Below are positions 16,500 through 27,845 of a stretch of 64,000 nucleotides of DNA, piece by piece. The first letter of the stretch is position 1. Each line of letters starts with the position of its first letter. Made by a program: the position numbers and the translations under genes. The notes under the pieces were generated by a model. It searched no databases, was not told the DNA's origin, and was given only the letters and a program-made list of their open reading frames with translations. The stretch is from Weissella bombi (lineage in GTDB: Bacteria; Bacillota; Bacilli; Lactobacillales; Lactobacillaceae), in contig NZ_FMAO01000002.1 of NCBI RefSeq assembly GCF_900094835.1, positions 124,001-188,000 on the forward strand, given 5' to 3'.

Positions 16500-16529
16500 A
16501 ATTAGGGTAATGATAGGAGGCTAATTAAG

Positions 16530-17423
16530 GTGACAGAAAAATTTATCGAACGTCCTTATACACGGACGTTTGCAAAAACAGATTATATTAAACAACAATG
16601 GCAAGATGTATCTTATATGGCTGGTGAGCGTCATGATTTAGATATTTATTTACCAAATGAAGGCAATGGTCCATTCCCAGTTATCGTGGATGTATTTGGT
16701 GGTGGTTTGGTATTTGGTGATAAGAGCTCACATAAACTTGACCCAGCATTGAAGTTATTGGATAAGGGATATGCGGTTGTAAGTATTTCATATACTTGGA
16801 TCCAAAATGCAGCATTTCCAACACAAATCTATGAGGTTAAAGCGGCAATTCGTTTCTTACGTGCTCATGCGGCTGAGTATCAATTGGATATGGATCGAGT
16901 GGCATTAATGGGCGAGTCATCTGGTGCACAATTGGCTTTGCTCGCAGGAGTAACCGCAACGGTAGATGAAATATCTAATCGTGAGTTTGGCGAAAATGCT
17001 GACGAATCTGAACAGGTAAATGCAATTATTTCGCTTTATGGACCATATGAGTTTGATAAATTTGTGCCACAATTTAAAGAGAGTGGTATCGAACCAAATT
17101 ATTCTGAAACTGGTACTGCAGAGTCATTTGAAGGTCAGATGTTTAATAAACAAGCACCAAAAGATGTACCAGATAAGGTTAAAGAATATAATCCAGCGAC
17201 ATATTTCAGTGCAGAAATGCCACCAATTTTGGCTTTTGTTGGTACCGCTGATGTGATTGTGCCATATCAACAAACGGTTAATATGATTGCAGCTGCTCGT
17301 CAGGTTGTGAGTGATGATCGTGCTGAAATTCATGTTATCGAAGGTAAGGGACATGGACCAGGTGCTTATATGACGCCAGAAAATACAGAGATTAAAGCTA
17401 ATTTTTTGCAAAAATGGCTATAA
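16530..17423 (+). CDS. Alpha/beta hydrolase, esterase-like
   Basis: This 297-residue protein belongs to the alpha/beta-hydrolase fold, hormone-sensitive-lipase-like esterases (BD-FAE/DLH-like). Visible features are VDVFGGGLVFGDK, the oxyanion-hole motif (about residue 53), GESSGAQLALLAG with the nucleophilic Ser (about 130), and an Asp in VGTADVIVPYQQT (about 235) with the His in GKGHGPGAYM (about 275). The GTG start follows ATAGGAGGC. No signal peptide is seen, so it acts in the cytosol. It is 14 bases before a small membrane gene and may share a transcript. The natural ester is unknown. Confidence 0.85.
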   Translation: MTEKFIERPYTRTFAKTDYIKQQWQDVSYMAGERHDLDIYLPNEGNGPFPVIVDVFGGGLVFGDKSSHKLDPALKLLDKGYAVVSISYTWIQNAAFPTQIYEVKAAIRFLRAHAAEYQLDMDRVALMGESSGAQLALLAGVTATVDEISNREFGENADESEQVNAIISLYGPYEFDKFVPQFKESGIEPNYSETGTAESFEGQMFNKQAPKDVPDKVKEYNPATYFSAEMPPILAFVGTADVIVPYQQTVNMIAAARQVVSDDRAEIHVIEGKGHGPGAYMTPENTEIKANFLQKWL

Positions 17424-17437
17424 ATTGAGGTTAAAGA

Positions 17438-17653
17438 ATGCTAGGTGCTTTTGGTAAAACATTTTTTCGAGCAACACCACAACAGTTATTTATGCAATTA
17501 ATGATTGATATTTTGTGGTATTTGATTTTTCGTCCTACTGATTCATTTTCAATGTGGGTTTATATAATTATTTTGCCAGGCTTTGATTTAGTATCAGCCA
17601 TTGGTAGTTTTTGGAATTATGTGAAAGATAACAAGCAACAATCAAATAAATAA
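17438..17653 (+). CDS. Small membrane protein
   Basis: This 71-residue protein has two hydrophobic stretches (about residues 20-35 and 42-58) and a basic, Gln- and Asn-rich tail KDNKQQSNK. The start follows GAGG and is 14 bases after the esterase stop, which suggests co-transcription. It has no recognisable family. The stop codon is immediately next to a parS site. Confidence 0.6.
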   Translation: MLGAFGKTFFRATPQQLFMQLMIDILWYLIFRPTDSFSMWVYIIILPGFDLVSAIGSFWNYVKDNKQQSNK

Positions 17654-17669
17654 TGTTTCACGTGGAACA
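17654..17669. promoter_or_regulatory. parS centromere site
   Basis: The 16-mer TGTTTCACGTGGAACA reads on the - strand as TGTTCCACGTGAAACA, the exact consensus for Spo0J/ParB binding. ParB (60.9 kb) nucleates here and spreads, helping origin segregation. The same 16-mer occurs again at 59294. It begins directly after the stop codon of the preceding gene. Confidence 0.9.
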
Positions 17670-17676
17670 TTTAATT

Positions 17677-17712
17677 AACAGGTTACTTTTAAAGAAAGTG
17701 GCCTGTTTTTTT
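17677..17712 (+). terminator. Terminator before the LytTR island
   Basis: AACAGG(TT)AC pairs with GT(GG)CCTGTT and ends in T7. Confidence 0.75.
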
Positions 17713-17742
17713 GCGTTCAATAATAGAAACGTAACGTTTAAT
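17713..17742 (+). promoter_or_regulatory. LytTR-type operator, direct repeats
   Basis: GCGTTCAAT (17713-17721) and ACGTTTAAT (17734-17742) match at seven of nine positions and start 21 bases apart, that is, two helical turns. This geometry (9-bp repeats, 12-bp gap) is the known binding site of AgrA/PlnC-type LytTR regulators. It lies 177 bases before the orphan LytTR gene, consistent with autoregulation. Confidence 0.6.
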
Positions 17743-17827
17743 ATTTTTTGTTTGTAAATGAATGAATCAATTTAAGATTAATTGATATATGTAAGAAGTT
17801 AGATTTTTAGCTAAATATAAATATTAG

Positions 17828-17870
17828 GACAATTTTTAGTGGACTTTTAAATCTAAAAACTGTCTTTTTA
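17828..17870 (+). terminator. Hairpin in the LytTR leader
   Basis: GACA(A)TTTTTAG pairs with CTAAAAA(C)TGTC and is followed by TTTTTA. It sits between the operator and the LytTR gene, so it either attenuates that gene or ends a short transcript. No ORF is seen between 17742 and 17828. Confidence 0.6.
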
Positions 17871-17918
17871 TATGAGCGATTGTTGAATATAACGTGCTAG
17901 CAATATGGAGGGAAATTT

Positions 17919-18668
17919 GTGTTAGAGATAATAATATTAGAAGATGGGCAGCAACGATTAACTTGGATATCTAATTTTATTAAACGATATACGAAATTTG
18001 AGGAACTAGCGGTAACCATTAAGATTGCTACACCTGATGTTGAACGAATAAAGGCTTTTGTTCAAACAAGCTTGCACCAAAATTTTTTGTTTTTTATATA
18101 TGTTGTAGATGATGAAGGTGTCAGATTGGGAAAATATATCAGGAAAAAATTACCAGCAGCTAATCTAGTATTTATTGCTGCGTGTGAAGAACCATTATCG
18201 TCAATATTGAAACATCGTTTAGCACCGTTAGATTATGTAGCTGATTTAACGAATGATGATTTGATTGAAGAAGCAATCCGTAAAGATATTAATATCTCTT
18301 TAAAACGGACCGTTGATCATATGTACAATAATCCAGAGAAATTTGTGTATAAATTACAGAATCGTTATTATGATGTGCCGATGTCTGAAATATTGTATAT
18401 CGCTTCAAAACCAAATTATGTTAACCGTGTTATTTTATATACCAAAAATACAGTAATTGAGTTAAATGATTCATTATCAAATATTGAAAAAAGACATCCG
18501 GCATTATTTCGATCTCATAAGGGTTTTATTGTTAATTTGTCAGCCGTCAATTATGTTGATGTCCAAGCTAATCGCATTTACTTTCGTAGTCATGAAGACT
18601 TATTTTGTCCAATATCGGTGCGAAAGAAGCAACGCTTTAAAGAAATTTGGCGACAAGAGAAATTATAA
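17919..18668 (+). CDS. LytTR-family response regulator, orphan
   Basis: This 249-residue AgrA/ComE-type regulator has a receiver domain with an ILED motif (about residues 5-8) and a phosphoacceptor-region VVDDEGVRLGKYIRKKL (about 63), and a C-terminal LytTR DNA-binding domain with HPALFRSHKGFIVNLSAVNY (about 200). These regulators control bacteriocin or competence genes through 9-bp direct repeats, which are present upstream at 17713 and possibly 18676. The GTG start follows ATGGAGG. There is no histidine kinase gene beside it, which is unusual; the kinase may be elsewhere, or the regulator may act without phosphorylation. The region is markedly AT-rich up to 25.2 kb. Confidence 0.85.
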   Translation: MLEIIILEDGQQRLTWISNFIKRYTKFEELAVTIKIATPDVERIKAFVQTSLHQNFLFFIYVVDDEGVRLGKYIRKKLPAANLVFIAACEEPLSSILKHRLAPLDYVADLTNDDLIEEAIRKDINISLKRTVDHMYNNPEKFVYKLQNRYYDVPMSEILYIASKPNYVNRVILYTKNTVIELNDSLSNIEKRHPALFRSHKGFIVNLSAVNYVDVQANRIYFRSHEDLFCPISVRKKQRFKEIWRQEKL

Positions 18669-18675
18669 ATTAGCA

Positions 18676-18705
18676 ACGAATACTAGTGAGAAATTAACGT
18701 TAAAT
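18676..18705 (+). promoter_or_regulatory. Second, weaker LytTR-type repeat pair
   Basis: ACGAATACT (18676) and ACGTTAAAT (18697) start 21 bases apart, the same spacing as the pair at 17713. They agree at five of nine positions, so this is a weak candidate operator for the operon starting at 18803. Confidence 0.35.
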
Positions 18706-18802
18706 TCTTTTTTATCTGAATTTGTAAATTAAATTTATTATTAGGAGTGTGGAAGGAGGAAATGTAGTATATCGGTACAGTCATAGTATAGGGAAAAGTA
18801 AA

Positions 18803-18997
18803 ATGATATTTTCAAATAAATATAGTCGATTAATACCATTACACTTGTTGTTATTTATTGTTAGCTGTAATATTCCTGATTTAATTAAAACAGATCAATT
18901 TTTGTTGGAAGAAAGTATTCGTACGTACGGGGCTTTGGCTATTGTTATTTATATGGAAGTTAGGACGTACCGGAAAATAAATAATAGTCTTGGGTAG
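18803..18997 (+). CDS. Small membrane protein of the peptide-export island
   Basis: I take the ATG at 18803, after AGGGAAAAG, giving 64 residues (MIFSNKYSRLIPLHLL onward) with hydrophobic stretches at about residues 9-20 and 41-52. A longer frame opens with GTG at 18749 but the ribosome-binding site is too close to it. The strongest site nearby, GGAAGGAGG at about 18751, is followed by ATG and immediately TAG. No family is recognised. Such small membrane proteins next to bacteriocin exporters are often immunity factors, an inference only. Confidence 0.4.
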   Translation: MIFSNKYSRLIPLHLLLFIVSCNIPDLIKTDQFLLEESIRTYGALAIVIYMEVRTYRKINNSLG

Positions 18998-19021
18998 ATA
19001 GGAATCTTTATAAAACAAAAA

Positions 19022-19675
19022 ATGAAGTTAATTAAAATTAATTATAAAGTAGTGCTTACGTATGTTTTAATAATCCCGTTTAGCTTTTATTGTGCGGTTA
19101 CTGTACCGTACGTTGGATTACTGACATCTTTTTTAGGAGGTATAATTTCGTTACTATTGACGCTTGGTAGTCAACAGGTATTTTTATTATTGAAACCAAT
19201 GAATAAACCTTTTCTACGGCAAATGGTTAGGTTATTATTTTTAGCCTTTTTAATACGATTAGCATTAGTGTGTATGATGGTAATGTTTGATTTCCAAAAT
19301 ACAAGTAATGTAATTGGTAATGGATATATCACTCAGCTAGTTCATGCGAATATAGTAACAAAATTAAGTTTATTAATTTTGTTACTAATAGAAATGACGG
19401 GGGAAGAACTGTTATTAGCTAGCGTCATATTACCAATGTTTTTTTATTTAAAAAAATGGAATTACTCATGGATATTTAGTGTTTTTATGGGGAGCTTATT
19501 ATTCTCTTTAATGCATCTATACGCCTATGATTTTAATATTTGGTTTTGTGTTATTGCAGGATTATCGCATATACCAATGATTCAAGCATGGAGAGTTACT
19601 AATTCTTTACGTGGAGGTATATATATACATATTTTTTATAATATGATTTCGATATTTCCAGCTTTACTGCTATAG
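19022..19675 (+). CDS. CPBP (Abi) family membrane protein
   Basis: This 217-residue protein has six or so membrane helices and the CPBP/CAAX-like motifs: EE in GEELLLASVILP (about residues 129-130), FSLMH (about 161-165) and HIFYN near the C-terminus. The usual Arg of the EExxxR motif is not at its expected place, so protease activity is uncertain. Family members near bacteriocin genes give self-immunity or process peptides. A clear ribosome-binding site is lacking; the gene is 24 bases after the small membrane gene and six before the next ORF. Its AT-rich composition matches the island. Confidence 0.7.
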   Translation: MKLIKINYKVVLTYVLIIPFSFYCAVTVPYVGLLTSFLGGIISLLLTLGSQQVFLLLKPMNKPFLRQMVRLLFLAFLIRLALVCMMVMFDFQNTSNVIGNGYITQLVHANIVTKLSLLILLLIEMTGEELLLASVILPMFFYLKKWNYSWIFSVFMGSLLFSLMHLYAYDFNIWFCVIAGLSHIPMIQAWRVTNSLRGGIYIHIFYNMISIFPALLL

Positions 19676-19705
19676 TTTTTAATGATTTCTAGAAGAGGGA
19701 TAAAT

Positions 19706-21298
19706 ATGTTTCACATTGTTATTGATCGATTTAATTTCAAATTCGTAGTTTATTGGATTATTGGAATTATTATGTTTTTATATGGTGCTGTTCTTCAGAT
19801 ACAAATACCCGAAAAATTACAAAATGTGATAAATTTGGCTGTTAAAAATCAATTTAAACATATTTATGTTAATCATTTGGTTGAGCTATTGCTATTTATA
19901 ATTATTATTTCGTTTATAAGTCAATTACTAGTAGGTTTATCAAGCGAAAATATAATACTAAATATTAGAAATAAGCAATTTGCTCAAATTATTAAGCAAT
20001 CCAGTTATAACCTTAATAAATCTTATGCTGAAATTTCTAACAGATTAACAAATGATACAGAAGCTATTGGTAGTCTATTTAGTTCAACAATACCTAATTT
20101 ATGTAAGGAGGTAATAATTTTTATAGGTTCTCTTTTTTTGTTATTCAGATTAAATAAGGAATTATTTACAATACTTATGATTTCTGTCGTAATATTTGCG
20201 GTATTTATGGGTGTAATTGGAATTGTATTATCTAAATATTCCGAATTGTTTAAACAAGCAGGATCGGATTACTTGAGAGTTGTTCTGAATTTATTTGAAA
20301 ATTGGAATTTAATTAAAGTTTTAAATTTAGAGCAACATGCAGTGACTCTTGAAAAAAAACAAGCCCAAAAATTATATAAATGGAGTATAAAAGGGCTCCT
20401 GCTTAGTATTTTTTCTGGGCCCATACAATTATTGTTTTTTTCTGGTCTCATTATTACCATAACCTACGTTATAGGTAAACAATTAGATGACGGTACCATG
20501 AATTATGGATCAATTGCAGCATTAATAATGTTGTTAGTTAACCTTTTACAATCATTAATTGGAACATTTAATGGTTTTCTCGAATATAAAAAAGATATTG
20601 GACAATTAAAGGGCTTACGACATATTTCTGAGATTTTAAAAAATTCAGTAAATATTAAAAATAACCTAGCAACCCATAAACCTGTTAAATATATAACGTT
20701 AAATGAAGTATGTATTAAAAAAAAAGATAAAAACATACTGAAAAATGTCTCTTATGAGTTTACAGATAATTATTACGCAATAATGGGTGAAAATGGTGTT
20801 GGGAAAAGCACTCTTGTAAAGGCTATGTTAGGACTAGAGGTCATATCATCAGGTAATATTTATATACCTGAAAATTATAAAATTGCCTATATAGAACAAA
20901 ATCCAAAATTTTTCATTGGAACGATACGTGATAACGTTTCTTTTGACAAACCGATTAGTGACACAATACTTATTGAAACATTAAAAAAAGTAAATTTATG
21001 GGATGCTTTTAAAAATAGAAATGGGCTAGACACTTTGATAAGTGATACTTCCGTCTTTTCAGGCGGTGAAGCACAAAAGCTTTCTATTGCAAGAGCACTT
21101 GCTTCTAAATTTGATGTTTTAATATGTGATGAAATTACGTCAAATTTAGATAAAGCTAGTAGCATGCTAATAAACAACTTATTGCAAGATTTATCCAAAA
21201 GCAAACAAGTTATTGAAATAACACATCATGTAATAAATGACAATAATCGAAAAATATTACAAATTTCAGAGGGATTTTTACAAGAGTATGAAAATTAA
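19706..21298 (+). CDS. ABC transporter, fused permease and ATPase (exporter)
   Basis: The ATG at 19706 follows AGAAGAGGGA and gives 530 residues; an ATG at 19682 has no such site. The N-terminal half has five or six membrane helices; the C-terminal half has Walker A MGENGVGKST (about residue 364), a signature FSGGEAQKLSIARAL (about 450) and Walker B DVLICDEITSNLD (about 471). This is a half-size exporter that works as a dimer. It has no N-terminal peptidase C39 domain, so it would not cleave a double-Gly leader, which fits a leaderless peptide. The next gene overlaps its last 11 bases. Confidence 0.8.
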   Translation: MFHIVIDRFNFKFVVYWIIGIIMFLYGAVLQIQIPEKLQNVINLAVKNQFKHIYVNHLVELLLFIIIISFISQLLVGLSSENIILNIRNKQFAQIIKQSSYNLNKSYAEISNRLTNDTEAIGSLFSSTIPNLCKEVIIFIGSLFLLFRLNKELFTILMISVVIFAVFMGVIGIVLSKYSELFKQAGSDYLRVVLNLFENWNLIKVLNLEQHAVTLEKKQAQKLYKWSIKGLLLSIFSGPIQLLFFSGLIITITYVIGKQLDDGTMNYGSIAALIMLLVNLLQSLIGTFNGFLEYKKDIGQLKGLRHISEILKNSVNIKNNLATHKPVKYITLNEVCIKKKDKNILKNVSYEFTDNYYAIMGENGVGKSTLVKAMLGLEVISSGNIYIPENYKIAYIEQNPKFFIGTIRDNVSFDKPISDTILIETLKKVNLWDAFKNRNGLDTLISDTSVFSGGEAQKLSIARALASKFDVLICDEITSNLDKASSMLINNLLQDLSKSKQVIEITHHVINDNNRKILQISEGFLQEYEN

Positions 21299-22052
21299 AA
21301 ACAAAATATCTTTAATTGTTATTCTAGTTGTTTTAATTGTTAGTGTTCTCGTCAGTTTACTCTTTGTGAAAGAGCAAAATCAGATGAAAAGTTCTGATAT
21401 TTATAAAAATAAAGAAACAAAAGTTAAATTAAGACCTTATAATATGCCAGCACAACTAGCTACTGTAGATACTGTGAAGTCATATTTGCTTGCTAATTTT
21501 TTTAAAAATAACTCTTTAGTAGATGATGGTGCATGGTTAAATAAAAACCAAAAAATATCTACTAATAACATGGTGTCACCCATTGATGGTATTTTTTCAT
21601 TTCAGAATGATATACCTATAATTTATTATCCTGAGTCTCGGATTTCATTTTATGTAACAGAAAATGAAATAAGTAATATTTCGATAGGCATGCCTTTAAA
21701 TTTTCAGCTAATTTCAAATCCTGAAATTAAAGGGAATACTACAATTGCGTCTATTTCTGCAGTGCCTATAAATAAAAATGGAAGTATATCAAAATACAAA
21801 GTTATATCAGAAATTTTAGATCAAAGTAAATTAGACTTACGTAAAGTGAAATTTGGACAACATTTATCTGTAAAAATATTGTCCCATGAATTTATTCTGC
21901 CGAAAAAAATGATTCAAAAAAATAACGTTATAACCGCAAAACTATCAAACAAGTGGACCAAGGTTCACGTGAAGATTAACAAAGTCATTGACAATAATGT
22001 ACTAATTTCTCCATCCGGTGAATTACATGTAGGCATGGAAGTTAAAAAATGA
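21288..22052 (+). CDS. HlyD/YknX-like membrane fusion protein
   Basis: The start at 21288 overlaps the ABC gene end by 11 bases and gives 254 residues. There is one N-terminal membrane anchor (about residues 6-27), then a hydrophilic, mostly beta-rich region with a lipoyl-like segment (MVSPIDGIFSF, about 89) and a beta-barrel-like ISFYVTENEISNISIGM. This is the adaptor of the YknXYZ/MacA type, smaller than Gram-negative MacA. It ends four bases into the MacB-like ATPase gene. Such adaptors work with the two genes after it. Sequence similarity is modest and the call depends partly on gene order. Confidence 0.7.
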   Translation: MKIKNKISLIVILVVLIVSVLVSLLFVKEQNQMKSSDIYKNKETKVKLRPYNMPAQLATVDTVKSYLLANFFKNNSLVDDGAWLNKNQKISTNNMVSPIDGIFSFQNDIPIIYYPESRISFYVTENEISNISIGMPLNFQLISNPEIKGNTTIASISAVPINKNGSISKYKVISEILDQSKLDLRKVKFGQHLSVKILSHEFILPKKMIQKNNVITAKLSNKWTKVHVKINKVIDNNVLISPSGELHVGMEVKK

Positions 22053-22729
22053 ATAATTTAATATCATTTAAAAATGTAACTAAATCATATATTGATGGTG
22101 AAAATAAAAAGACAATCTTGAATAACGTTTCTTTACAAATTAAACAAGCTGATTTTGTTGTAATTGTAGGAGAGTCTGGTTCAGGTAAGACAACTTTACT
22201 TAATATAATTTCTCTATTAGATAATAATTTTGATGGAGAATATTTATTAAACAATGAAAATATTCAAAATATGTCTGATTATAAATTGTCTAAATTACGA
22301 AGAGATAGAATTGGTTTTGTATTTCAAGATTTTAAGTTATTACCAAACCTAAATGTTGAACAAAATGTTCAATTGCAAAGAGAGTATCAAACAAATCCTC
22401 AAAAAAAAGAAGATGTACGTACTTATGTAAATAAGTTATTAAAAATAGTTGGCCTTTTGGAACACAAACATAAATTTCCAAATCAACTTTCTGGAGGACA
22501 AAAACAACGTGTTGCAATTGCACGCTCACTATTTAATGACGCAGATATTGTCATAGCAGATGAGCCAACAGGTGCGCTAGATAAAGACACAGGAAAATCA
22601 ATAATGGAGCTACTTAGAAAGCTTAATGGTTTAGGTAAAACAATCATATTAGTTACTCATGATTTATCACTGGCAGATTATGCAAAGCAAAAAATAGTAG
22701 TTGATACTAAAGGAGTACACAAAATTTGA
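22049..22729 (+). CDS. MacB/LolD-type ABC transporter ATPase
   Basis: This 226-residue ATPase has Walker A VGESGSGKT (about residue 37), VFQDFKLLPNLNVEQNVQL typical of MacB/LolD proteins, the signature LSGGQKQRVAIARSL (about 149) and Walker B ADIVIADEPTGALD (about 167). It overlaps the adaptor gene by four bases and its stop overlaps the start of the permease gene by four bases. With them it forms a three-part transporter as in YknXYZ (SdpC immunity) or the AucEFG set of the leaderless bacteriocin aureocin A53. The substrate here is inferred. Confidence 0.88.
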   Translation: MNNLISFKNVTKSYIDGENKKTILNNVSLQIKQADFVVIVGESGSGKTTLLNIISLLDNNFDGEYLLNNENIQNMSDYKLSKLRRDRIGFVFQDFKLLPNLNVEQNVQLQREYQTNPQKKEDVRTYVNKLLKIVGLLEHKHKFPNQLSGGQKQRVAIARSLFNDADIVIADEPTGALDKDTGKSIMELLRKLNGLGKTIILVTHDLSLADYAKQKIVVDTKGVHKI

Positions 22730-23883
22730 ATATACGAGAAAAATTAGTATATAGAATTAAAGACGTTCGTTCCTATCCTAAACAAAATGGAGCAGTTCTT
22801 GTATCTGTAATTATATCCATGATTAGTGTATTACTTATAATTGCTATCGGAAATGGTTTAGCTAACAATATAGCATCTCAATTGAAACCCATGTCTTCTA
22901 ATAAATTATCATTTCTTTACACTAGCAATACTAAACAATCAATTAGTGACAAAGATTTTAGTTACCTTAATAACATTCCAGAAGTGCAAAGTTTTAATGT
23001 TTCTAGTGATGAAAAAATGAGTAACGTAGATACGTTATTAAAACAGGAACAACATTTGGCGACTATTGGTAAAATAACAGATTTTTCTACGTTTAAAATC
23101 ATTAAAGGTAATAAAAATGCTTTAGATACAGATAATTCTGTATTTATAAATCAATCTGCGCTTTGGATTAGACCTAGTGTTTTAAATTCTTTAATTAACA
23201 GTAGTATCTTTATAAATGGCAAAATGTTTATCATTAAAGGTTTATATACTACTAATCTATTGGATGGTGGTAATCTACCAGATATTTTAATTAGCGCTAC
23301 TCATTTTAAGAATTTGGGATTGCATATTTCTAATAACATGTTAAATGTTAACTTTGATTTAAAATCAGAACATAGTATAAAAAAATTAGAAGACACTATA
23401 ATCGATCAATATGATGAATTACACTCTGGTGATGGTGGTTTAGTTGTATTGGATGATACTGTATTATCTGACAGTATGCACGGATTAGTTAGTAAAATAA
23501 CAACACTAGTTGTTATAGTTGCTTCGATTTCACTTATAGTTTCTGGATTCAGTATTTCAAGTAGTATGTATGCCAACATTGCAATTAGGTCAAATGAGAT
23601 AGGATTAAGACGGACATTAGGGGCTACTAGAAAGAATATTCGGAATCAATTTATTATAGAAGGTTTAATCTTATTAGTAGCAGGAGTGTTCATAGGTGAT
23701 ATTATTTCCCAAGTAGCAGTTCTAATCATGAAAGTTTTAGGTATTGATACTTATATAAGTGTAGAGGAAATGTTAATGGTAGGATTTATACCAATTATTA
23801 TTGGTTTCATATCTAGTATCAGCCCGGCAACAATAGCCGCAAATAAAAATATAACTGACATATTGAAATCGGAATATAATTAA
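22726..23883 (+). CDS. FtsX/MacB-type ABC permease
   Basis: This 385-residue permease has one N-terminal membrane helix, a large extracytoplasmic domain (about residues 47-245) and three C-terminal helices with the FtsX-family motif RSNEIGLRRTLGATRKNIRN (about residues 288-307). The start is TTG and overlaps the ATPase stop; AAAGGAG lies about ten bases upstream. It is the partner of the ATPase and adaptor before it. It would extrude or protect against a peptide rather than import. The next gene begins one base after its stop. Confidence 0.85.
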   Translation: MNIREKLVYRIKDVRSYPKQNGAVLVSVIISMISVLLIIAIGNGLANNIASQLKPMSSNKLSFLYTSNTKQSISDKDFSYLNNIPEVQSFNVSSDEKMSNVDTLLKQEQHLATIGKITDFSTFKIIKGNKNALDTDNSVFINQSALWIRPSVLNSLINSSIFINGKMFIIKGLYTTNLLDGGNLPDILISATHFKNLGLHISNNMLNVNFDLKSEHSIKKLEDTIIDQYDELHSGDGGLVVLDDTVLSDSMHGLVSKITTLVVIVASISLIVSGFSISSSMYANIAIRSNEIGLRRTLGATRKNIRNQFIIEGLILLVAGVFIGDIISQVAVLIMKVLGIDTYISVEEMLMVGFIPIIIGFISSISPATIAANKNITDILKSEYN

Positions 23884-24510
23884 ATGGATTATAAATATAA
23901 TTTAATTTTTTTGGGTTTATTAATAAATTGTGGTATTAGTTTATGCTTTTCTTTGATAGTTTCATTTTTAAATATATTTGTTGCTATATGGAATAATAGT
24001 ATATCAATGGAATATGCAATATTATTACAAAATATAATTCGTATCATAGTAGCTGGTAATTTACTGATTTTTTTCGTGTTTTATCAAGATAGCATGATGA
24101 AAGAAAAATTAGAATATAACTTGAAAATAAATTTATCAGTATTTGTGTGCATATTAATTATGCTCATTAGCATTATATTAATCGGTAGTGTTTCTGATAA
24201 TCTTAAAACACCATTTTCAATAACTATAATTGCAATGTCTATGTTATTAACTGGATTTTCAGAAGAGATAGTTTATAGAATGGTAGCTATGAATTGTTAT
24301 CCAAATCATTTCTGGCTAGTTATTTTATTACAAGGTATTATTTTTTCATTTGTCGGACATGGTTTATTTAATGATTTTAGTACAAATTTGTTTATTCGCC
24401 TGCCATTAGGTATAATTTTTGGTTTTATTTATAGGCATACCCAAAAAATTTGGTATGGATCTTGTTTACATGGGCTTTATGATTTTTGTATTTACGCAGA
24501 AATATTTTAA
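23884..24510 (+). CDS. CPBP family intramembrane metalloprotease
   Basis: This 208-residue protein has about seven membrane helices. The catalytic motif EEIVYR is at about residues 129-134 (EExxxR), followed by FSFVGHG and by CLHGLYDF near the C-terminus, so, unlike the copy at 19022, the Arg is kept. CPBP proteins in bacteriocin loci act in immunity or peptide maturation. The ATG directly follows the TAA of the permease gene, so the two are translationally coupled. The role here is inferred from its neighbours. Confidence 0.75.
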   Translation: MDYKYNLIFLGLLINCGISLCFSLIVSFLNIFVAIWNNSISMEYAILLQNIIRIIVAGNLLIFFVFYQDSMMKEKLEYNLKINLSVFVCILIMLISIILIGSVSDNLKTPFSITIIAMSMLLTGFSEEIVYRMVAMNCYPNHFWLVILLQGIIFSFVGHGLFNDFSTNLFIRLPLGIIFGFIYRHTQKIWYGSCLHGLYDFCIYAEIF

Positions 24511-24524
24511 TTTAAGGAGAAATA

Positions 24525-24962
24525 ATGATTAAAAAAACTGGAAATGTACTAATAATAATTGCGTTTTTGGCAATATTGTCTCCATTATTTTATATGTCAG
24601 ATAATATTTTTACATTTTTAATTGTTCAAAGTTATGGTCCAATACTTTTGTTAGGATTGGGATTGGCATTTGCTTTTGGAAGGCAGGATTGGACTAGTAA
24701 TATATTACCTGTTGTTTCTATCAGTTTATTATTTTCTGTATTTACTGATTCGCTCTCTCTTTATTTGCAACCACAAATAAATGGATTAGCACAACATAGT
24801 AGTACACAAAATTTGGCTGTAAGTGTCAGTAAGCCAACGCTATCAGGCATTATTATAATGCTTATATTTGATTTTTTTGTAACATATGTTGTTTCGTTTT
24901 TATTTGTATTTGTAGCTAATAAATTTCTTTTATTTAAAAATAAGGTTAAGGAAAGGGGGTGA
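24525..24962 (+). CDS. Membrane protein of unknown function
   Basis: This 145-residue protein has four hydrophobic segments (about residues 7-25, 30-48, 58-75 and 112-135) and a basic C-terminal tail (NKVKERG). The start follows AAGGAG. No family is recognised. It lies between a CPBP protein and the two small peptides with almost no gap, so it belongs to the operon; an immunity role is possible but not shown. Its stop overlaps the GGGGGTGAGAA ribosome-binding region of the first peptide. Confidence 0.6.
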   Translation: MIKKTGNVLIIIAFLAILSPLFYMSDNIFTFLIVQSYGPILLLGLGLAFAFGRQDWTSNILPVVSISLLFSVFTDSLSLYLQPQINGLAQHSSTQNLAVSVSKPTLSGIIIMLIFDFFVTYVVSFLFVFVANKFLLFKNKVKERG

Positions 24963-24967
24963 GAAAA

Positions 24968-25057
24968 ATGAAAAAATTTAAATTGGCTCAAATTTTCTAT
25001 TTAGGTCGTGGATTTGTAAATATCAAGTGGCATTATGCAAAGCATAAGTATATTTAG
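24968..25057 (+). CDS. Small cationic peptide 1, bacteriocin-like candidate
   Basis: A 29-residue ORF starts at 24968 behind the strong ribosome-binding site GGAAAGGGGGTGAG. It is basic (six Lys, one Arg), has two His and one Trp, and ends GFVNIKWHYAKHKYI. There is no double-Gly leader. Its C-terminal half shares IKWxYxKxxxI with peptide 2. It is the penultimate gene of an export/immunity operon, so a leaderless bacteriocin or signalling peptide is proposed. It is too short for standard gene calls. A chance ORF is unlikely because of the ribosome-binding site and the related neighbour. Confidence 0.6.
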   Translation: MKKFKLAQIFYLGRGFVNIKWHYAKHKYI

Positions 25058-25074
25058 TAAGGAGATAGTTATTA

Positions 25075-25161
25075 GTGAGGAATAAATTCATGATAATTCC
25101 ATTTTTTGCTTATGGAATTTGGAAAATAAAATGGCAATATCGTAAGGGACATTCTATTTAA
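25075..25161 (+). CDS. Small cationic peptide 2, bacteriocin-like candidate
   Basis: A 28-residue ORF starts with GTG at 25075, eight bases after AAGGAGAT. It ends GIWKIKWQYRKGHSI and has two Trp, three Lys in the last half, and a hydrophobic centre (MIIPFFAYG). It shares IKWxYxKxxxI in the last 11 residues with peptide 1 and lies 17 bases after it, so the two are paralogues that could act together. No leader is present. It is followed by a strong terminator, which marks the end of the operon. Confidence 0.58.
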   Translation: MRNKFMIIPFFAYGIWKIKWQYRKGHSI

Positions 25162-25197
25162 TAAATGATTACCTAATTTTAGTAGAATATACTTTTT

Positions 25198-25228
25198 AGA
25201 GGCTGAGATAGAACTCAGCCTCTTTTTG
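25198..25228 (+). terminator. Terminator ending the peptide island
   Basis: AGAGGCTGAG pairs perfectly with CTCAGCCTCT and runs into TTTTTG. Confidence 0.88.
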
Positions 25229-25404
25229 TTTTTTTCATACTTGAATTGAAAATTAAAAGGTTAAGTATCATTAGTTAAAAATGTTTAACTTAAAAATTGA
25301 TACTAAAACAATGATAATCGCTTGTTATTAATGGAATAATATTTGCTATCTCTGGCAAACATTGCGATACTGAAATATATATTTAATAAAGGAGATGAAC
25401 AAAC

Positions 25405-26349
25405 ATGCGACAAATACTTGTTGATGTACACCGCCTGACAAAAAAATTTCAGTTGACGCAATTACAACTATATATTAAAAGAGGCAATTTGAAGATGGTG
25501 GGACCAACCATTACTTATTATGCACTTTTGTCATTGGTTCCGATCTTGATGAGTGTGGGGGCAGTTGCGAGTTTAGTAGGGTTAGATTCGCATGATTTAA
25601 TCACTTTGCTATCACAACAGTTACCTGCAAACATTATGAATGTTTTAGGTCCGATTATTCAGTCGGTGTTAAAAGGTGGCGTTGGAATTTTGTCATTTTC
25701 AATTGTGACAACCGTATGGGCAGCTAGTTCTGTTTTGGCAATCATTCGTAAATCGTTTAATGCTATTTATGATGTTCCTGAACGAGTTAGTGGGTTATTA
25801 ACTCGCGTATTCAGCTTTTTATGGTTAGCAGTTATACTACTTTCGGTTGGATTAGTGATGGTAGTTAGCGCTATTTTACCTGCAATTATTGCTGCTATTC
25901 CAGGAATTGAATGGTTGGAATTTATTACTAAACAACGTTGGCTTATTACGCTAATTGGACTTTGGCTCATTATATGTTTGTTTAATATTGCAATGCCGGC
26001 TAAGCGTCTTGCCGTGAAGCCATTGATTATTGGTTCGGGTATAGAAGTTGTTCTGATGATTATTTTAAATTATTCATTTGGTTGGTATGCACAATTTACT
26101 GTTAAAAATGTTGGCTTTTATCAATCTTTGGGATCATTGCTTGTGCTAATTGTCTATTTGAATTTAGTTGGGACTATTATGGTTATTGGTCAGATTATTA
26201 TTGCTTGGTTAGAAGGCATTTTTGCAACTAGTTTAAATCCGATAGACCCAGTGCCTGCGGCAGCTAAACGACCTGCTGCTAAGAATCGTCAGACTGCTAC
26301 AACGCAAAATATCACAAACAAAGGCAACCGTAAAAAAAGCCGTCGTTAA
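25405..26349 (+). CDS. YihY/BrkB family membrane protein
   Basis: This 314-residue protein belongs to the YihY/virulence factor BrkB family (PF03631). Six membrane helices are visible, with the family features MVGPTITYYALLSLVPILM (about residues 31-49), FSIVTTVWAASSVLAIIRKSF in two halves near residue 95, and FGWYAQFTVKNVGFYQSLGS (about 230-249). A Lys- and Ala-rich tail after residue 290 is poorly conserved. The start follows AAAGGAG. Base composition returns to normal here after the island. Function in the family is unclear; the older RNase BN assignment was wrong. Confidence 0.85.
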   Translation: MRQILVDVHRLTKKFQLTQLQLYIKRGNLKMVGPTITYYALLSLVPILMSVGAVASLVGLDSHDLITLLSQQLPANIMNVLGPIIQSVLKGGVGILSFSIVTTVWAASSVLAIIRKSFNAIYDVPERVSGLLTRVFSFLWLAVILLSVGLVMVVSAILPAIIAAIPGIEWLEFITKQRWLITLIGLWLIICLFNIAMPAKRLAVKPLIIGSGIEVVLMIILNYSFGWYAQFTVKNVGFYQSLGSLLVLIVYLNLVGTIMVIGQIIIAWLEGIFATSLNPIDPVPAAAKRPAAKNRQTATTQNITNKGNRKKSRR

Positions 26350-26474
26350 GGCACTACTTGTGATTTTTATAAGGTTAAAATTAATAGATTGTGAAAAAGT
26401 TTATCCCCCTTTTTTGGAAAATGGCGTTATAATAGTGGCGTAGAATTGTTGTCGTTTTCATTAAGGGGGATATT

Positions 26475-27845
26475 ATGACATACAAAACCACATATCCATA
26501 TACTGGGGAAGTGTTGCAGACGTATGATGATGCAACTGAAGCAGATTTAGAACAAGCATTGGCAACTGGTCATGAACTGTATAAGACATGGCGTGGTACA
26601 TCGGTTCGGGAACGTGCAGATGTATTGGCAAAGATTGCTGATGCTATTATTGCGCATAAGAAAGAGCTAGCTAAGGCAATGACTTACGACATGGGAAAGT
26701 TGTTGACTGAAGCTGAAGGGGAAGTTGATTTATGTGCAAGTATTGTTTCTTATTATGCAGACAAGGGTGAAGAATTCATGGCTGATACGCCATTGGAAAC
26801 ACCCGCAGGTAATGCACATTATATTAAGCAATCAACTGGTATTATTGTTGCTGTAGAACCATGGAATTTCCCACTATATCAAGTTGTTCGTGTATTTGCA
26901 CCAAACTTTATTGTTGGAAATCCTATTATTTTAAAGCATGCTTCAATTTGTCCAAAGTCTGCACAATTATTTGCAGATATTGTTTTAGAGGCTGGTGCAC
27001 CTGAGGGAGCACTTAACAATTTGTTTATTGATTATGACTTGGTATCTAAGGCTATTCATGATCCACGTGTAGCTGGTGTTTGTTTGACTGGTTCAGAACG
27101 TGGTGGATCAGCTGTTGCCAAGGAGGCCGGTGAAGCATTAAAGAAGTCAACTTTAGAACTTGGTGGTAACGATGCCTTTATCATTTTGGATGATGCCGAT
27201 TGGGATGAAGTTAAGGCCGTAGCACCAGGAGCTCGTTTATATAATGCTGGTCAAGTCTGCACATCATCAAAGCGATTTATTGTAATGGCTGACAAGTATG
27301 ATGAGTTTATTGACGTGTTAAAGGATGGTTTCTCAAAGGCAAAAGTTGGTGATCCAATGGATCCTGCTACTGATGTGGCACCATTATCATCAAAGAGCGC
27401 GCAAGAAAAGTTACAAAAGCAAGTTCAAACGGCGATTGATGGTGGAGCAACCTTAGTTTATCGTCAAGATCATGTTGGTGGGGATGGATTCTTCTTTGAG
27501 CCAACAATTTTGACAGATATTACTAAGGATAATCCAATTTATAATCAAGAGATGTTTGGACCTGTTGCTTCAGTATACAAGGTAAACTCAGAAGAGGAAG
27601 CAATTGCTTTAGCTAATGACTCAAGTTACGGTCTTGGTAACACAATTTTCTCAAGTGACATTGAACATGCACAACGTGTAGCAGCTCAAATCGAGACTGG
27701 AATGTCATTTATTAATTCAGGTTGGGCATCATTACCTGAGTTACCATTTGGTGGTGTTAAGAACTCTGGTTATGGTCGTGAGTTGAGTGAATTAGGATTG
27801 AATGCCTTTGTAAACGAGCATTTGATTTTTGAACCAACTAAGTAA
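26475..27845 (+). CDS. NAD(P)-dependent aldehyde / succinate-semialdehyde dehydrogenase
   Basis: This 456-residue aldehyde dehydrogenase oxidises an aldehyde to its acid. It has VEPWNFPLYQVV (about residue 136), the LELGGNDAFIIL motif with the general base Glu (about 233) and the catalytic Cys in NAGQVCTSSKR (about 266), then FGPVASVYKV. It is of the succinate-semialdehyde / lactaldehyde type (GabD-like), but no GABA genes are near and no substrate can be named with confidence. The start follows AAGGGGG and a TATAAT lies about 45 bases upstream. A terminator follows. Confidence 0.85.
   Translation: MTYKTTYPYTGEVLQTYDDATEADLEQALATGHELYKTWRGTSVRERADVLAKIADAIIAHKKELAKAMTYDMGKLLTEAEGEVDLCASIVSYYADKGEEFMADTPLETPAGNAHYIKQSTGIIVAVEPWNFPLYQVVRVFAPNFIVGNPIILKHASICPKSAQLFADIVLEAGAPEGALNNLFIDYDLVSKAIHDPRVAGVCLTGSERGGSAVAKEAGEALKKSTLELGGNDAFIILDDADWDEVKAVAPGARLYNAGQVCTSSKRFIVMADKYDEFIDVLKDGFSKAKVGDPMDPATDVAPLSSKSAQEKLQKQVQTAIDGGATLVYRQDHVGGDGFFFEPTILTDITKDNPIYNQEMFGPVASVYKVNSEEEAIALANDSSYGLGNTIFSSDIEHAQRVAAQIETGMSFINSGWASLPELPFGGVKNSGYGRELSELGLNAFVNEHLIFEPTK

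Follow-up and report, generated by a model that had tools for sequence, protein, structure and literature searches.

We examined a 64,000-nucleotide stretch of the Weissella bombi genome (contig NZ_FMAO01000002.1, positions 124,001–188,000; hereafter the window), in which a LytTR-family regulator gene precedes an apparent operon whose last two genes, pep1 and pep2, encode candidate bacteriocin peptides. The locus lies in a slot between a small membrane protein gene (17438–17653) and a YihY-type gene (25405, named by eye); coordinates are those of the window, and all features placed within the slot are on the forward strand. The regulator gene (17919–18668) is followed by p64 (18803–18997), CPBP1 (19022–19675), a half-size ABC exporter (19706–21298), a MacA-like adaptor (membrane fusion protein, 21288–22052), a MacB-type ATPase (22049–22729), an FtsX/MacB-type permease (22726–23883, TTG start), CPBP2 (23884–24510), m145 (24525–24962), pep1 (24968–25057) and pep2 (25075–25161). 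The ten genes from p64 to pep2 are all open frames with intergenic gaps of −11 to 30 bp and are probably read as a single transcript, and pep1 and pep2 appear to close an operon ended by an intrinsic-terminator-like stem of 10 pairs and a T run (25198–25223). An earlier note on this DNA had named all these genes except p64, which is added here, and had described an AT-rich island with a strong terminator. The G+C content of 0.273 for 19684–25284, compared with 0.362 for the window, agrees with the former; the stem and its T run are present, but terminator-like sites are no commoner than in shuffled sequence (three in a 9-kb scan, shuffle mean 2.9), the other two lying upstream of the regulator and within the FtsX gene. 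A strong Shine-Dalgarno (SD)-like stretch also stands some 40–50 bases ahead of p64 (18750–18802; same place in sister loci L048, L049, and L050). It opens a very short frame in three sisters (about 9–13 codons, by eye) and reads ATG-TAG in the window, and stretch and tiny frame together may act as a leader or attenuator for the cargo operon.

The pep1 gene starts with ATG and encodes 29 amino acids (MKKFKLAQIFYLGRGFVNIKWHYAKHKYI), and pep2 starts with GTG and encodes 28 (MRNKFMIIPFFAYGIWKIKWQYRKGHSI, translated from the GTG). Both peptides are cationic, with computed masses of 3629.4 and 3560.3 Da (3657.4 and 3588.3 Da on average if N-formylated), isoelectric points of 10.3 and 10.7, seven and six Lys/Arg residues, respectively, and no Asp or Glu. 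The ribosome-binding sites previously seen ahead of both genes are borne out by the computed anti-SD pairing, which amounts to −21.0 kcal/mol for the pep1 ATG at 24968, the top value of 17 starts computed, and to −8.2 kcal/mol for the pep2 GTG at 25075. At least one SD-led open reading frame (ORF) of 25–45 amino acids occurred in 331 of 4000 dinucleotide shuffles of 24940–25197, and two successive ones in a single shuffle (1/4000). Chance ORFs were rejected as the leading view by this test, though no homologue confirms the ORFs. The IKWxYxKxxxI end shared by the peptides had been noted before. Their paralogy, also claimed there, is likely but suggestive only, as 201 of 20,000 shuffles reach their local alignment score. 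A double-glycine scan of 16501–26500 found nothing, so neither peptide has such a leader; together with length and isoelectric point this is what is expected of short cationic leaderless peptides, with leader absence judged from that scan and the sequence and no signal-peptide predictor forming part of the test. A membrane-peptide toxin was rejected as a candidate, as no 19-residue segment of either peptide attains the hydrophobicity limit used. AlphaFold modelled a 32-amino-acid form of pep1 as a single helix from one-sequence input (predicted local distance difference test, pLDDT, 79), which was not used as support.

Comparison with other genomes of the genus (28 searched, source genome included) showed the same slot with different content. 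The regulator was found at the slot in five of the 27 other genomes (G019, G012, G018, G023, and G009) with about 59–92% identity; a sixth match, in G024 (1.7e-9), has none of the slot neighbours, and G010, G002, and G007 have no island protein between the small membrane protein gene and the YihY-type gene. The upstream flank, regulator, p64, and CPBP1 of G019 share 89–95% identity with the window (CPBP1 89%), its YihY-type gene 76%, and its m145 75%; of CPBP2 only the C-terminal end is left. The DNA common to both ends at 19684, resumes at 24340, ends again at 24943, and resumes at 25284, which leaves about 19684–24340 and 24943–25284 private to the window. Regulator, p64, CPBP1, and m145 are thus common to the window and a sister genome, whereas the transporter block and the peptide block are both present in the window and both absent from G019 and G012. 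The G019 slot has three double-glycine peptide genes ahead of CPBP1, of which the first matches Pfam Bacteriocin_IIc over its cutoff (7.8e-9), the second the same family weakly and under cutoff (0.021), and the third LcnG-beta (3.4e-4) and NCBIfam lactococcin G-beta (6.4e-7), both under cutoff. It further has a bacteriocin accessory protein (TIGR01000, 1.4e-144) and a C39 exporter (TIGR01193, over cutoff) split over two frames, so that the set is class IIb-like but its C39 exporter is interrupted. In G009, whose regulator contains a frame break, a C39 exporter gene precedes the regulator, and downstream of p64 comes a single peptide that matches Bacteriocin_IIc over cutoff (4.8e-8). G012 retains a stub of the double-glycine peptide, and its m145 is broken. 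The slots of G018 and G023 gave no match in the double-glycine scan. Two of the five sisters therefore have recognisable bacteriocins, one a remnant, and two none. Because the same regulator and p64 front double-glycine bacteriocins in two of the five, it is very probable from these comparisons that the region serves as a slot for bacteriocins in which the cargo can be exchanged, and the earlier reading of a bacteriocin locus is well supported by the class II bacteriocins in the same slot of two sister genomes.

Two further observations concern the sister slots. Frame breaks interrupt the C39 exporter in L046 (4446–6616), the regulator in L050 (3326–4095), and m145 in L047 (3069–3484), which suggests that the slot decays often. 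A short-chain dehydrogenase gene, absent from the slot of the window, lies between p64 and the YihY-type gene in G018 (L048 1971–2777; Pfam adh_short 1.9e-57), G023 (L049 1945–2751), and G009 (L050 1713–2519).

The regulator has a LytTR domain (Pfam, 2.7e-15) and aligns to full-length ComE, N-terminal part included (phmmer, 5.7e-13), and to the AgrA profile over residues 3–236 (1.7e-16, far below the cutoff of that profile); residues 1–127 alone have no Pfam match. The column of alignment A1 with Asp in G018, which we take to be the phosphorylation site found in two-component bacteriocin regulators of the ComE/PlnC/BlpR type, has Tyr61 in the window, Tyr in G019 and G012, Asn in G023, and, by eye, Asn in G009. 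As a four-residue gap adjoins this column, Asp64 of the window is a possible shifted site, and judged by the alignment the receiver domain is degenerate rather than dead. The regulator had been called an orphan. Indeed no kinase was found in the locus, and because of its degenerate receiver domain the protein may be kinase-independent, but it belongs to the conserved frame and not to new cargo. GHKL-domain matches occur elsewhere in the source genome. The only plasmid relative at 1e-20 is encoded on a Limosilactobacillus reuteri plasmid (35.5% identity over 97%, 8e-43), where it adjoins a GHKL kinase, a C39-type peptide cleavage/export transporter, a thioredoxin-family protein, and a Blp-family bacteriocin.

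The gene downstream of the regulator, p64, encodes 64 amino acids with one strong hydrophobic segment, from which a membrane location is predicted, and is conserved in all six genomes aligned (41–95% identity). Since it is conserved and sits where LytTR Regulatory Systems encode an inhibitory membrane protein, p64 is by analogy a candidate inhibitor of the regulator, or equally an immunity protein. A LytTR-type direct repeat, GCGTTCAAT-N12-ACGTTTAAT (17713–17742, 7/9 identical), lies upstream of the regulator and is the only site in the window, on both strands, with the full consensus score of 18/18, a score that is partly circular given that the consensus was derived from those very sites. 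Similar repeats occupy the same place in G019, G012, G018, and G023. A possible second repeat, ACGAATACT-N12-ACGTTAAAT (18676–18705), lies between the regulator and the operon starting with p64, and at this place 8/9 positions are identical in G018, 7/9 in G023, and 8/9 in G009. Searching the window with an IUPAC pattern at up to three mismatches gave four matches (3.0 expected), the exact one at 17713. Across six genomes the pattern occurred 39 times with at most one mismatch, compared with 25 for a reversed control, nine of the 39 being at the locus, and seven times without mismatch, five of them at the locus. A regulator with a downstream membrane protein and predicted binding sites of 9-bp repeats 12 bp apart is the arrangement of a LytTR Regulatory System.

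Between p64 and the peptide genes the operon encodes candidate export and immunity functions. CPBP1 is an Abi/CAAX-type membrane protein (Rce1-like, 3.4e-6) with a glutamate pair lacking the Arg of the EExxxR motif that is found in CPBP2 (9.9e-13), a candidate immunity or processing protein. CAAX proteases have been linked to bacteriocin immunity, processing, and receptor roles, or in one case to a signal peptide (PMC9298176). The half-size exporter, a candidate peptide exporter, has membrane and ATPase domains, six hydrophobic segments, and no C39 peptidase match, in line with the earlier note, but its start is corrected to ATG 19706 (SD −8.7), which is more likely than 19682 (+0.8). The adaptor was recognised by alignment and fold, with no significant Pfam match: it resembles one adaptor-like protein adjoining a MacB/FtsX pair elsewhere (6.9e-6), and its model (pLDDT 64) matches the PDB structures of BesA, MacA, and Spr0693 at low TM-scores, with a best E of 1.6e-7. 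Followed by the ATPase (profile match) and the FtsX permease, it gives the gene order of a MacAB-type tripartite pump, with the adaptor modelled at modest confidence. The protein m145 has 145 amino acids and four hydrophobic segments and is a candidate immunity or export accessory protein. Putative dedicated ABC export and immunity genes thus lie in the same apparent operon as the peptides, as in leaderless bacteriocin loci, and probably act on pep1 and pep2. The operon does not have the make-up of a double-glycine class IIb locus, its exporter having no C39 match and 16501–26500 no double-glycine leader; a C39 exporter is present elsewhere in the source genome. No PH-domain was matched among the island proteins scanned.

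We consider a leaderless two-peptide bacteriocin the best reading of this locus, based on context, translation signals, and charge, and put at roughly 0.6 the probability that the slot yields pep1 and pep2 as its product and that the two are exported leaderless and work together. The LytTR regulator and p64, joined in the nearest sister by CPBP1 and m145, would form the frame of the slot that stays while peptide and export cargo changes, and in the window the cargo would consist of the non-C39 exporter, the adaptor/MacB/FtsX pump, CPBP2, and the two peptides. The regulator would bind the paired repeats upstream of its own gene, and probably those ahead of the cargo operon as well, and turn on p64, CPBP1, exporter, adaptor, MacB, FtsX, CPBP2, m145, pep1, and pep2 as one transcript. 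Made without a leader, N-formylated and unmodified, the peptides would be exported by the half-size exporter, the MacA/MacB/FtsX-like pump, or both, and would act on related Gram-positive cells by permeabilising them, perhaps via a receptor recognised by the IKWxYxKxxxI end. Protection of the producer would come from the pump, CPBP2, m145, and possibly CPBP1. More tentative, and in our estimate somewhat short of even odds, is the wider proposal of a novel leaderless two-peptide family, defined by the IKWxYxKxxxI end and a size at or below the shortest listed, in a chromosomal slot where a degenerate-receiver LytTR regulator and a small membrane protein drive interchangeable bacteriocin classes.

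Several observations weigh against a leaderless two-peptide bacteriocin. No convincing homologue of pep1 was found in the 28 genus genomes (three further matches with E 0.22–0.28, two of them interrupted by stops), nor of either peptide in 350 family and 395 order genomes, two sets that overlap, so that no conservation backs the ORFs. Neither peptide matched Pfam or NCBIfam, and a PDB sequence search (E up to 10) returned only a lectin and a cell surface protein and no bacteriocin, a negative limited by the fact that the bacteriocin chains contained in the PDB copy searched were not established. The helical moments of the peptides are not above those of shuffles, and their genes are the last in the operon. 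No histidine kinase was found among the island proteins scanned and no inducer in the locus. In the window, as in G019 and G012, the second repeat is a weak one (5/9 identical, 15/18), and the repeat pattern occurs five times in the source genome compared with nine for the reversed control. Finally, the sister loci are partly decayed, and the window locus could be silent.

A two-row model of the peptides strongly recovered the window's own pep1 and pep2; its other matches came to 24 rows at E ≤ 0.1 in the family genomes and three at E ≤ 0.01 in the order genomes, the best non-self match reaching 9.0e-4. None of the 12 inspected among these 27 weak-match rows was a free-standing ORF of 25–35 amino acids: one had nothing near the locus centre, and the other 11 lay in longer frames, had no start before the match, overlapped or lay inside another gene, or covered few residues past the first start. 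The single plasmid match of pep1 (E = 7) lies in a Providencia nadA gene. Peptides of this kind were absent from the listed titles of papers on Weissella with leaderless bacteriocins and with LytTR gene clusters. Because family matches were sought and none found, pep1 and pep2 are not assigned to any leaderless subgroup (aureocin A53-, LsbB-, or enterocin L50-like), as judged from the Pfam, NCBIfam, and PDB sequence searches, which did not include member-by-member alignment. A new leaderless two-peptide bacteriocin, as the earlier note had proposed, is accordingly plausible and leading from context, but has no convincing peptide relative among the genomes searched.

The check suggested in that note, copies of the peptides beside the transporters in other strains, gave no such copies and is uninformative, because at the limits used neither the adaptor nor the exporter was found in another genome: each search returned the window's own copy only (adaptor, one of 395 order genomes at 1e-5; exporter, one of 350 family genomes at 1e-45). 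A pattern scan of GTDB species genomes with the exporter, which used a single sequence and reaches close relatives only, yielded two distant ABC relatives. The exporter matched 1668 plasmid records at 1e-10, with below 60% identity at the best place in each; of three neighbourhoods, the Jeotgalibaca one has a class III lanthipeptide synthetase next to the match, and the other two have genes of other kinds there. The adaptor and m145 had no match in plasmids, and the permease matched one record, from Lactococcus raffinolactis, where an adaptor-ATPase-permease set adjoins an Rgg-type regulator. Permease relatives at 1e-25 were present in 13 of 394 order genomes besides the window's own. In all seven of these regions that were inspected, a MacB-type ATPase adjoins the permease with an adaptor-sized frame alongside, and in none of the seven was the window's exporter or either peptide seen. 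No relative of m145 was found in phages, and none of m145 or the permease in viral contigs.

The main rival is that pep1 and pep2 are secreted inducing signals, released via the ABC systems, by which neighbours or density are sensed, with the antimicrobial cargo lost here. The ComE/AgrA-type regulator, whose plasmid relative is encoded next to a kinase and a Blp bacteriocin, fits such a role, as do the absence from the window of the double-glycine peptides of G019 and the described case of a bacteriocin locus whose signal peptide may be processed by a CAAX protease (PMC9298176). We nevertheless regard a signal as unlikely: the locus has no histidine kinase match and the receiver domain is degenerate, a double-glycine leader is missing from the peptides, and a signal would hardly require a pair of peptides, two ABC systems, and several candidate immunity proteins.

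The same genes might instead form a decaying immunity or efflux island, in which CPBP1, CPBP2, m145, and the MacAB-like pump act against the peptides of neighbours and pep1 and pep2 are chance or relic ORFs. The lack of convincing peptide relatives, the frame breaks in sister loci, and the 89% identity of CPBP1 to a protein beside G019 bacteriocins that the window lacks are in keeping with this. It is rendered quite improbable by the strength of the pep1 SD, the rarity of two successive SD-led ORFs in shuffles, the uninterrupted frames of all ten genes, and the half-size exporter, which seems superfluous for immunity alone. That before acting the peptides are modified, for instance crosslinked between Lys and Trp, or are cleaved by one of the CPBP proteins as a protease is suggested by the KW pair in both and by two CPBP proteins, one with the EExxxR motif, but is highly improbable given that no radical SAM enzyme, as the earlier note had it, and no other modifying enzyme was found among the 10 island proteins scanned (the rest of the genome was not searched).

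Leaderless two-peptide enterocins have peptides of about 43–44 amino acids, and the C-terminal motif of LsbB-like bacteriocins contains PWE. Among the published descriptions compared, the transporter set closest to that of the window is the enterocin DD14 cluster, which encodes a 163-amino-acid four-helix protein of unknown function, a periplasmic-component-like protein, an ATPase, and an FtsX-like permease (PMC7332713, as excerpted). Like the window, it and related leaderless two-peptide enterocins combine two cationic peptides with a four-helix protein, adaptor, ATPase, and FtsX-like permease, a likeness of kind drawn from description; deletion of the EntDD14 ATPase lowered production to 25% of the wild-type amount (PMC7332713). 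The window differs in its peptides of 28–29 amino acids with no family match, the additional half-size exporter, the two CPBP proteins, the LytTR regulator, the terminal position of the peptide genes, and the lack of a PH-domain match. In the rows of one table of leaderless bacteriocins, isoelectric points exceed 10, charges range from +4 to +9, and LsbB with 30 amino acids is the shortest (PMC6131525), the usual size being given as 30–50 amino acids (PMC6249370); the leaderless weissellicins Y and M of Weissella hellenica have 42 and 43 (PMC6131525). The window peptides are similar in size and charge to LsbB, which is served by the ABC transporter LmrB and whose group (enterocins K1, EJ97, and Q) is described as sharing C-terminal resemblance (PMC6131525, PMC5413573, PMC7332713). 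Unlike that group, pep1 and pep2 lack PWE, and the window has two peptides and a MacAB-like pump. Aureocin A53, lacticin Q, and lactolisterin BU are, like the window system, leaderless and cationic with multi-gene export and immunity, but have 43–53 amino acids compared with 28–29, share no Pfam, NCBIfam, or PDB sequence match with pep1 and pep2, and, in lacticin Q, come with the TetR-type regulator LnqR (PMC6131525, PMC6249370, in the parts consulted).

In the LytTR Regulatory Systems HdrRM and BrsRM, as summarised in PMC6193735, the downstream gene encodes a membrane protein that inhibits the LytTR regulator, and bacteriocin genes are among the targets. The window shares with them a hydrophobic protein gene just downstream and 9-bp repeats 12 bp apart (PMC6193735). 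It differs in that the regulator keeps a ComE-like N-terminal part and a second repeat lies between regulator and p64, and p64 is likened to HdrM and BrsM by gene position and hydrophobicity, not by sequence. Class IIb double-glycine loci of the lactococcin G and Blp type represent the cargo of sister slots behind the same regulator, from which the window differs in lacking both a double-glycine leader on its peptides and a C39 domain in its operon.

If pep1 and pep2 are a leaderless two-peptide bacteriocin, they would represent a family invisible to homology mining, because peptides so short that match no model searched would be missed. Further families might then be reached by following the conserved regulator, p64, and repeats and reading the slot content, and a change of cargo class behind one degenerate-receiver LytTR regulator would allow kinase-free regulator function to be tested. 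A mismatch-free LytTR-type repeat was also found on G000 contig C12 (46805–46834; L092 6806–6835, minus strand), directly upstream of a flippase-like gene (Polysacc_synt 3.1e-20) that may be a second target of the regulator. This repeat has a counterpart in G019 (C10:21442), and the G000 flippase-like gene is followed by a C39-domain ABC exporter that was not found on the same G019 contig.

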